Below are positions 34,821-38,314 of a stretch of DNA of 50,416 nucleotides, one piece after another (positions within the stretch are counted from its first letter, which is position 1; every line of letters starts with the position of its first letter). This DNA is from Campylobacterales bacterium (GTDB lineage: Bacteria > Campylobacterota > Campylobacteria > Campylobacterales > Sulfurimonadaceae). A program made the translations under genes and the position numbers. Location: contig JAPLGP010000030.1 in NCBI GenBank assembly GCA_026390075.1, positions 1 through 50,416 on the forward strand, read 5' to 3'. The notes under the pieces were generated by a model. That model did not search any database and was not told where the DNA came from. It saw only the letters and a program-made list of their open reading frames with translations.

Positions 34821-35237
34821 TTACAGATGCATAAGTTGTGAAAGTAAAATAATAATCACAACTAAAGAAAAGGGAAAGATATGGCTTGTAAAAACAAAAG
34901 GATTGATGCCAAATAGTTTTTGGTTAATCCCTCTCACGCCAAGCCATGCACCTAAAAATGCTTTGATGCTGAGCATGATTTGAAAACTGCTCATTCCATC
35001 TTCACTGATTTTACCAAAAACCTGCGTAATCATATAAAGTCCACTCGCAACCGCAACCATCAAAGCGTAGGGAACAACCGCCCTAACATGCACCATAATA
35101 GCTTCTCTTGCCACTTTGTACTGTTCATCGCTAAGTGTACGGTTCATTTTAGACAAAAACAAAACATCAACAAATAAAAAACCGCCGTAAATAAAAACTG
35201 AGAAAATATGAATAGTATGAATAAGTGTGTAAATGAT
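34821..35237 (-). CDS. CopD-like four-helix membrane protein; apparent ATC start
   Basis: A 138-residue integral membrane protein with four helices (about 4-24, 50-70, 82-100 and 112-132) of the CopD/DUF2269-like type. The first helix (IYTLIHTIHIFSVFIYGGFL) is only included when translation begins at ATC 35235-35237, six bases after AAAGGA. The first conventional start (TTG 35162) would delete it. No ATG, GTG or TTG occurs between the upstream in-frame stop and 35162. Function is unknown; relatives may bind heme or copper. A 12-mer copy lies upstream at 35265. Confidence 0.7.
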   Translation of the reverse strand: MIYTLIHTIHIFSVFIYGGFLFVDVLFLSKMNRTLSDEQYKVAREAIMVHVRAVVPYALMVAVASGLYMITQVFGKISEDGMSSFQIMLSIKAFLGAWLGVRGINQKLFGINPFVFTSHIFPFSLVVIIILLSQLMHL

Positions 35238-35396: not shown

Positions 35397-35720
35397 ATGA
35401 AGAAAATTTTAATGAATTTAGTAGTTGTTATGGCTTTTAGTACCTTAGCGATGGCAGATGTCGATGCTACAGTAAATGAAAGAGCCAAAGAGTTTATAGC
35501 TTCAAACTTAGTCATTCTTGCAAAAGAGGCTGCTGTGGGTCATGGTGAATCCATTGAGACTTTGGCGGAGCTTTTATCCATTCGGGATGTAGATAAATTC
35601 TCTGCATATTTACAAACAAACCATAAAGATATTAAAAATATTGGCACAATTCTTACTGCAAGTATGGTTGAAGAGTTTAATAATATCTCCACCATAGACA
35701 TGCAACTAAGCATAAACTAG
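35397..35720 (+). CDS. DUF3015-like secreted protein
   Basis: A 107-residue protein with a signal peptide (1-20, ending AMA-DV). The mature part (EFIASNLVILAKEAAVGHGE, SIETLAELLSI, KFSAYLQTNH) matches the C-terminal half of DUF3015 proteins; the usual N-terminal half is missing. DUF3015 and DUF4105 genes are often neighbours, and the DUF4105 gene follows here after 54 bases. Function is unknown. Confidence 0.75.
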   Translation: MKKILMNLVVVMAFSTLAMADVDATVNERAKEFIASNLVILAKEAAVGHGESIETLAELLSIRDVDKFSAYLQTNHKDIKNIGTILTASMVEEFNNISTIDMQLSIN

Positions 35721-35774
35721 ATGGATTGTCTCGTTTGTTTGAACTCTTTTTTATCTTATATTTAGGAAATTCCC

Positions 35775-37601
35775 ATCTTAGTTAAACTTCTTTTTATCAC
35801 AATCTTTAGCATTACTTTTCTCCATGCTTCACTTTCAGAGTACAAAAGTAGAGCCGATGCGCTCAAATTATCGGAGGAGCGATATTGGCATTTGCTTCTT
35901 CATATGGTTGGAGGGGAGAGTGAGATTGATGATGCTCAGTTTTTCCTTGCACAAGGTGGCAAAACAGATGCAAAACACGAACTTGATGCAACGCTCACAG
36001 CCCTCTTAAATGAAAAAAGTTTTGATGACAACTCTACTGCATGTAAATTTCCAGCAAGAAAAGCATGGCTTAAAGAGAAGCTTCAGATAGATGATTTTGT
36101 TGAGGTAACTTGTAAAAAATATGATGAAACTCTGCAAAAACTCAATCCAAAATCTGTGACACTTGTTTATCCATCCGCGCATATAAACTCTATAACTTCT
36201 ATGTTTGGACACACATTTTTACGCATAAATTCTGGCTATAATTCAAGGCTTCTTTCTTACGCCATCAACTATGCAGCTGAAATAGAATCCAAAAAAACAA
36301 ATCTTTTTATGTCTGCTACAAAAGGTCTTAGTGGCGGATTTCCGGGGAGTTATTCGCTTTTGCCCTATTATGAAAAATTAAAAGAGTATCGAGATACGGA
36401 ACAACGCGATGTGTGGGAATATGACCTCAATTTGAATGAAGAGGAAGTTTTAGTGATGCTGATGCATTATTGGGAACTTCAAAATACAAAATCTGATTAC
36501 TACTTTTTTACTGAAAATTGCTCTTACAACATGCTTTGGTTATTAGAAGTTGCAAGACCATCGATACACCTACGAGAGCATTTCAGTTACGATGTCATTC
36601 CACTTGAGACTGTTCATGTGGCTCAAGAAGAAAACATCATTGAAAAAATAAACTATAGGGCTTCAAGAAGATCTATACTCCTCAAATACGAAGAGTTACT
36701 TGATGATGCTTATATCCACATGCCAAGAGATATCGTTGATTCAAAGATTGAGCTAAATAAAATAGTAGAAGATGAAACGATGGATGAGCAACAAAAAAGA
36801 TATATTTTAGAGGCATCTATCGAATTTTTGGAGTACTCATTTGCACAAAAGAGCATAAGTGAGCAGATGTATCAAACACTTTTTGAGACTCTGACACGAG
36901 AAAGAGCGACTCTTGGAAGTGGAGAAAAATTAAACATTGAGACACCTTTAGACCCGATGCAAAGCCATAGAGCGATAAGAGTATCCGCAGGTGCGGGAAT
37001 GAGAGATAATGAACGGATTGGGTTTTTAGGTATTCGTCCTGCATATCATGATTTGGAAGATAGCAGTTACGGTTTTTTACGAGGCACACAAATAGACTTT
37101 TTAAATCTTCAACTTGCATACACAGACCATAATGTAAGCGTGGAAGAAGCGACACTCCTCTCCATTGCATCTCTTTCGCAAAGGTCAGAATTTTTTGACA
37201 GCTTTTCATGGAGAACCAAAGTCGGCTGGGACAGAGACTACATGAGCGACAAAGCAAACTTCATCTCTACAGTCGGCGGTGGATATAGCTGGGGAAATAA
37301 ATTTGCATCTGTTTATCTCATGGCAGACCCGCTTTTGTATTCAGAAAACAAAGTTGTTACCGCGACTGGCAACAGTGTGGGGCTGATTTTTGACAAATAC
37401 TCTTATATGAACACAAATGTAGAGCTAACAAAAAGATGGTACGACACAGGCGAAGAACAATGGCTGGCAAAAGTGTCACAAAGTTTTAGAGTATCACAAA
37501 ATGTACAGCTAAAATTGAAGTACGATTATGGTGAGAAAAACCATCTGCAGACGATAGAGAAAAGAGAAACTTTCAAAGCATTGCTGAACTACTACCTTTG
37601 A
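35775..37601 (+). CDS. DUF4105 domain outer-envelope protein; apparent ATC start
   Basis: About 608 residues. A signal peptide (LVKLLFITIFSITFLHA) is followed by the DUF4105 domain (about 110-290) with SAHINSITSMFGHTFLRI and FFTENCSYNMLWLLE, whose His and Cys resemble a papain-like or NlpC-type active site, and a C-terminal region of beta-strands that looks like an outer-membrane barrel. No ATG, GTG or TTG occurs before codon 40. ATC 35775-35777 lies seven bases after AGGA and directly begins the signal peptide; an in-frame stop sits four codons upstream. A 12-mer copy at 36716 encodes Ile-His-Met-Pro. Confidence 0.8.
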   Translation: MLVKLLFITIFSITFLHASLSEYKSRADALKLSEERYWHLLLHMVGGESEIDDAQFFLAQGGKTDAKHELDATLTALLNEKSFDDNSTACKFPARKAWLKEKLQIDDFVEVTCKKYDETLQKLNPKSVTLVYPSAHINSITSMFGHTFLRINSGYNSRLLSYAINYAAEIESKKTNLFMSATKGLSGGFPGSYSLLPYYEKLKEYRDTEQRDVWEYDLNLNEEEVLVMLMHYWELQNTKSDYYFFTENCSYNMLWLLEVARPSIHLREHFSYDVIPLETVHVAQEENIIEKINYRASRRSILLKYEELLDDAYIHMPRDIVDSKIELNKIVEDETMDEQQKRYILEASIEFLEYSFAQKSISEQMYQTLFETLTRERATLGSGEKLNIETPLDPMQSHRAIRVSAGAGMRDNERIGFLGIRPAYHDLEDSSYGFLRGTQIDFLNLQLAYTDHNVSVEEATLLSIASLSQRSEFFDSFSWRTKVGWDRDYMSDKANFISTVGGGYSWGNKFASVYLMADPLLYSENKVVTATGNSVGLIFDKYSYMNTNVELTKRWYDTGEEQWLAKVSQSFRVSQNVQLKLKYDYGEKNHLQTIEKRETFKALLNYYL

Positions 37602-37698: not shown

Positions 37699-37953
37699 AT
37701 GCTAAGCATTGGGATAGGCGAACTACAAAAAAATATTTCTATATTTCAAAATCTTACAGAGATATTGGAGATAGTTGATAAAAGAACGAAACAACCACTC
37801 GCTTTTGTCTATCCGATTCAAAAGCAGGTAATGACCACTTCACTAGCAGGTAAATACAAAAATAGAGTCCCATTATCAACACTTAGTATAGAGCAAATAA
37901 AAGAGGAATCTTTTGCAAAAGCGATGGAGGAGAAATATGGTTCATCTTCTTGA
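37699..37953 (+). CDS. Antitoxin, Phd/YefM-like
   Basis: An 84-residue protein. Its first half (IGIGELQKNISIFQNLTEIL, then RTKQPLAFVYP) has the Phd/YefM layout: a short DNA-binding strand-helix unit followed by a strand ending in a Val/Tyr-Pro. The C-terminal half is expected to wrap the toxin. An AAGGGG site precedes the ATG. It overlaps the PIN toxin gene by 17 bases. Confidence 0.75.
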   Translation: MLSIGIGELQKNISIFQNLTEILEIVDKRTKQPLAFVYPIQKQVMTTSLAGKYKNRVPLSTLSIEQIKEESFAKAMEEKYGSSS

Positions 37954-38314
37954 TACAAATATTATCATTCGATTTTTGATAGGCGACCATGAGGATTTTT
38001 TACTCCAAAGTACTGAAATATTTAAAAATATAGAAACATCAAAAATACAAGTTGAAATTGGAGAGGGTGTTTTGATGGAAGCTTATTTTGTCTTAACAAA
38101 ATTTTATAAAATATCAAAAACTGAGGTGATAAATGACCTCAAAACCATTTTGGCATTTGATGGGGTAATCAATCACAATAAAGCAATCCTTTTTGAAACT
38201 TTTTCAATTTTAGAAAATAAAAATATTGATTTTGTTGATGCCTTGATATGTGCAAAAAGTAAACTTCAAGGATACGGAAAATTAAGTTTTGATAATGATT
38301 TAAAACGATGTTAA
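37937..38314 (+). CDS. PIN-domain toxin (VapC-like ribonuclease)
   Basis: A 125-residue PIN-domain protein. The acidic residues that bind the metal are present: Asp in LLDTNIIIRF (about 6), Glu in VLMEAYFVL (about 48), Asp in NIDFVDALI (about 100) and Asp in LSFDNDLK (about 119). VapC-type toxins cut tRNA or rRNA when freed from the antitoxin. The start chosen is ATG 37937 after GGAGGAG; a longer frame only repeats antitoxin sequence. No mobile element borders the pair. Confidence 0.87.
   Translation: MVHLLDTNIIIRFLIGDHEDFLLQSTEIFKNIETSKIQVEIGEGVLMEAYFVLTKFYKISKTEVINDLKTILAFDGVINHNKAILFETFSILENKNIDFVDALICAKSKLQGYGKLSFDNDLKRC

Follow-up and report, generated by a model that had tools for sequence, protein, structure and literature searches.

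We found that the Lnb-like (DUF4105) gene in the analyzed window, a stretch of 50,416 nucleotides of DNA from a Campylobacterales bacterium, most probably starts at an AUC codon and that this start is weak, a reading to which we assign a probability of roughly 85% on the strength of comparative sequence data. To our knowledge, very few bacterial genes start with AUU, AUC or AUA (AUH). Judged by its conservation among relatives, the odd start is real and maintained by selection. Its probable effect is to limit how much of the protein is made, and we lean towards the view that low yield is the purpose for which the weak start was selected. Beyond what the original prediction had noticed, the start codon is conserved, the gene stands second in a DUF3015-Lnb pair and another gene of the window behaves alike.

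The original prediction built on features that were borne out by the sequence: an in-frame TAG at 35763 followed by an open frame, an AGGA exactly seven bases ahead of ATC, and no in-frame ATG, GTG or TTG until codon 40. After the TAG the codons read GAA ATT CCC and then ATC 35775, and from 35766 no stop interrupts the frame until the one that ends at 37601. The gap holds one other AUH codon, ATT 35769, which lies 1 nt from the AGGA and is not conserved. In the relatives the signal peptide ILVKLLFITIFSITFLHA keeps the Lys/Arg of its n-region, its hydrophobic core and the small residue before Ser. Conservation of codon and signal peptide together supports the claim that ATC takes the place of a start codon and that a genuine signal peptide follows it.

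Table 1. Features of the DUF3015-Lnb-like locus and of the second AUH-start gene (window coordinates).
Feature	Position	Strand	Remarks
Small membrane protein gene, weakly DUF2269-like	34821-35237	-	conserved AUH start; ATC 35237-35235; AGGA 35247-35244
DUF3015 gene, first of the pair	35397-35720	+	Pfam PF11220; ATG start; 107 aa
Intergenic spacer	35721-35762	+	strong hairpin here in most relatives; decayed in the window and the clade closest to it
In-frame TAG closing the upstream frame	35763-35765	+	seen in the sequence
Shine-Dalgarno core AGGA	35764-35767	+	7 bases ahead of ATC; AGG-end spacing 7-8 nt in 50/51 genes
Lnb-like (DUF4105) gene	35775-37601	+	608 aa, stop codon included; assigned by Pfam domains
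Putative ATC initiation codon	35775-35777	+	aligned codon ATT/ATC/ATA in 50/51 genes; ATC/ATT/ATA/TTG in other genera
Predicted signal peptide, 18 residues	35775-35828	+	features kept in relatives
TTG, codon 40, earliest canonical in-frame start	35892-35894	+	judged a non-start; not conserved as a start codon
His146 codon, FGHT motif	36210-36212	+	candidate catalytic His; invariant in alignment A1
Cys249 codon, NCSYN motif	36519-36521	+	candidate catalytic Cys; invariant in alignment A1

Of 100 genomes searched from the same genus, probably Sulfurimonas, 60 contained relatives, and two more relatives came from further records. The window gene and its relatives gave 51 aligned genes (53-77% identity), in which the start codon was placed by Shine-Dalgarno spacing; a few rows come from identical or almost identical species and one (L034) from a sister genus, so that the 51 genes do not represent independent events. 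Comparing the codon in relatives, a check suggested by the original prediction, yielded ATT in 34 genes, ATC in 14, ATA in two and GTG in one. AGG (or GGGG) ended 7 or 8 nt ahead of this codon in 50 of the 51 genes. The first column of the signal peptide is Ile in 50/51, and all its other columns vary. Departures from the pattern are few: L048 and L052 carry an ATG directly ahead of their ATT, but at a poor spacing of 4 nt, and L020 uses a GTG one codon further on. ATA accounts for only 2/50 of the AUH codons at the start position compared with 44% of the Ile codons in the gene body, a difference for which the binomial probability (2e-10, ancestry ignored) is only indicative because the relatives are not independent. 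On a gene tree in which many branches are weak, the third base of the start codon switched between T and C on at least 12 occasions, whereas changes of codon class numbered only six. Since fourfold sites contain 11.5% G, the missing ATG alone would be modest evidence, and the main argument is carried by the difference from ordinary genes. In the same DNA, the adjacent upstream DUF3015 gene begins with ATG in 30 of 30 cases. The gene thus combines what marks a functional non-canonical start: a conserved AUH codon, normal Shine-Dalgarno spacing and no usable canonical start nearby.

The pattern extends beyond the genus. Other genera of the family show ATC (g4, g53), ATT (g49, g51), ATA (g2) or TTG (g5, g6 and one or two more), and one (g50) probably has GTG as read by eye. 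Across 101 genes with a placeable Shine-Dalgarno start, under a placing rule that favors spacings near 7 and leaves out genes without a clear Shine-Dalgarno sequence, we counted 47 ATT, 25 ATC, 22 TTG, six ATA, one GTG and no ATG. Outside the family, related families of the order apparently use ATG in several cases (e.g. L095, L102, L106) and TTG in others.

How might such a start work? A well-placed Shine-Dalgarno sequence would allow initiator tRNA to begin translation at a near-cognate AUH codon, and the signal peptide would send the Lnb-like protein to the periplasm or outer membrane. Selection would hold the codon weak, allowing it to move among AUU, AUC, AUA, UUG and GUG and to avoid AUG. 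We infer inefficient initiation and selection for low yield from this codon set: the yield of the second gene would remain low compared with that of the AUG-started DUF3015 gene ahead of it, and a high ratio of DUF3015 protein to enzyme would be set by the weak start in second position. Judging from this comparison, selection seems able to maintain a weak start codon throughout a whole family, and the relatives provide a ready test set for the limits on initiation at AUH codons.

Several known systems resemble this arrangement. The gene for IF3, infC (AUU in E. coli, AUA in S. aureus), likewise has a conserved AUH start with a good Shine-Dalgarno sequence and is controlled at the level of initiation. 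In contrast to the window gene, which is predicted to encode an exported enzyme, infC is autoregulated by its product; in the genus studied here, its start is apparently TTG as read by eye. As far as it is described in PMC13009471 and PMC9410913, E. coli pcnB (Binns and Masters 2002) has an AUU start that gives a low yield of a gene unrelated to initiation factors; compared with pcnB as portrayed there, the window gene is second in a pair and its family uses AUU, AUC, AUA or UUG throughout. In S. aureus, reporters of cvfC1 (AUU) and ccpN (AUA) reached about 10% of the AUG level (PMC13009471). Like the Lnb-like gene, both have a conserved non-canonical start and a strong Shine-Dalgarno sequence, but they are unrelated genes of another phylum studied with reporters, whereas the window gene is known from sequence alone and its codon, AUC, is not among theirs. 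A literature search on native AUC starts in bacteria returned nothing clearly relevant.

These systems raise the question whether the AUH start is also regulated, by IF3 level or growth state as for infC or ccpN, with the Lnb-like gene and the second AUH-start gene forming a growth-responsive set. This would add to a weak start rather than oppose it, and we consider it unlikely. In its favor, the AUU of infC is controlled by IF3, in rich medium the AUA of ccpN climbs to 30% of the AUG level (PMC13009471) and the trait is common to two unrelated genes of the window. On the other hand, the AUU of cvfC1 is unaffected by medium (PMC13009471), and several genera carry UUG, a common start codon, in the Lnb-like gene. 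A loss of infC from the own genome as the cause of the AUH start was considered and dropped, as relatives with infC keep the same codon. In that genome (G000, rated 99.99% complete) neither infC nor thrS was found; the two absences are probably one assembly gap.

The second gene, on the opposite strand at 34821-35237, came up when we looked through the window for further frames lacking a canonical start. Its match to DUF2269 (E 0.0028) is below the cut-off. In 29 relatives the start reads ATC in 11, ATT in 10, ATA in three, ATG in four and CTA in one, so that 24/29 have AUH; an AGGA stands ahead, and nearly all AUH cases have an AGG at 7-nt spacing. Three of the four ATG relatives have no strong Shine-Dalgarno sequence at 7 nt. 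Other genera likewise show AUH, though some have ATG. We then surveyed two 800-kb stretches, one 400-kb stretch and the window, covering 1025 ortholog pairs, for a Shine-Dalgarno sequence plus codon, with other codons as sham. Only the Lnb-like gene and the 34821-35237 gene emerged as clear AUH-start genes, along with one doubtful AT pair. Because the filter misses genes with a chance canonical codon upstream, two should be read as a minimum for the DNA covered. Matches to non-AT codons were, by eye, mostly rRNA-like or other non-coding DNA. This survey replaced one based on BLAST extension, in which nearly all of the 131 candidates were alignments running into 5' untranslated DNA. Searching for orthologs that share a Shine-Dalgarno sequence and an AUH codon ahead of any canonical start offers a method to find more such genes. 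The trait conserved across the family may be start-codon weakness itself, with at least two unrelated genes forming an AUH set whose translation could be sensed through initiation-factor activity, a broader idea that we regard as rather doubtful.

The Lnb-like gene is regularly accompanied by its DUF3015 partner. Immediately ahead of it, on the same strand, a DUF3015 homolog is present at 50 of the 51 loci of the genus set and at almost every locus from other genera. Folding of the intergenic spacer was strong in most relatives (z < -2 in 44/51, mean z -4.0; control inside DUF3015 -0.3), and the hairpin sequence turns over among relatives (L004-L054) while the structure stays. The window spacer has a folding z of -0.29. 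The hairpin may or may not act as an intrinsic terminator, as the T-run is often missing. The locus is a module of DUF3015, hairpin, Shine-Dalgarno sequence, AUH codon and Lnb-like gene in which the hairpin has decayed in the window's clade. While the hairpin may add a second layer of control in most relatives, this layer is not general, and its loss from the window and the closest clade indicates that it is dispensable for the AUH start. The DUF3015 protein of the window has 107 aa compared with about 148 aa in most relatives and aligns only with the later portion of the Pfam model.

This gene order bears on whether the frame is reached from upstream, by a frameshift, stop read-through or coupling to DUF3015, so that the AUH codon would not be the initiator. 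DUF3015 is close upstream in nearly all relatives, and in the window an ATG at 35721 is in frame ahead of the TAG at 35763. However, the distance to the upstream in-frame stop varies among the 51 genes, no upstream start in any frame, in-frame or out-of-frame, is shared by them, and entry from upstream would not conserve AUY together with Shine-Dalgarno spacing. We thus consider upstream entry very unlikely and retain initiation at the AUH codon, which coupling to DUF3015 translation could still help.

Even less probable is a start at TTG 35892 or later without a signal peptide, the upstream similarity being accidental or an old coding remnant, an option that the original prediction had left. 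This TTG is the earliest canonical codon; gene callers restricted to ATG, GTG and TTG would pick it or a later codon and would annotate a protein without signal peptide, species after species. Yet the signal peptide is conserved, the Shine-Dalgarno spacing fits the AUH codon and most relatives have no start codon at codon position 40. The first canonical codon has a median position of 44; eight of the 51 genes have no ATG, GTG or TTG before codon 100, several of them for more than 100 codons, and a later start therefore cannot be the general answer. An error of sequencing or assembly, likewise left as an option, or a point mutation that recently altered an ATG start in this strain can be dismissed: ATC is one base away from ATG, but ATT or ATC is kept in dozens of independently assembled species, including several single-contig genomes.

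The AUH-started gene encodes an Lnb-like protein with putative enzyme activity. It carries DUF7843 (residues 31-102), Lnb_N (116-282) and DUF7840 (393-591), and Lnb_N (PF13387, DUF4105) scored 182.6 bits against a curated cut-off of 22.2. DUF4105 was identified as the lipoprotein N-acyltransferase of Bacteroides (PMC12994826). With Bacteroides Lnb (PMC12994826, PMC11694511) the window protein shares the Lnb_N domain, and its invariant His and Cys may correspond, by motif only, to the catalytic pair of a permuted NlpC/P60 core, but it differs in the additional DUF7843 and DUF7840. As it falls far short of the NF051878 Lnb equivalog cut-off (19.7 vs 550 bits) and the genome also has Lnt, we call it only Lnb-like. 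Nor is it a stand-in for a missing Lnt, which scored over cut-off in the own genome (C10:45131-46171) and in 54 of the 60 genomes of the genus. Structure prediction with the window protein, L033 and L034 was too poor for use (mean pLDDT 34.5), and no solved structure matching the protein profile was found. The own genome also holds a distant DUF4105 paralog (L002, G000:C35:7536-11033) of about 30% identity, which apparently starts with GTG. Within the window, a small gene and the PIN-domain gene behind it (37699-38314) resemble a toxin-antitoxin pair, the PIN domain being assigned by Pfam and the antitoxin by position only.
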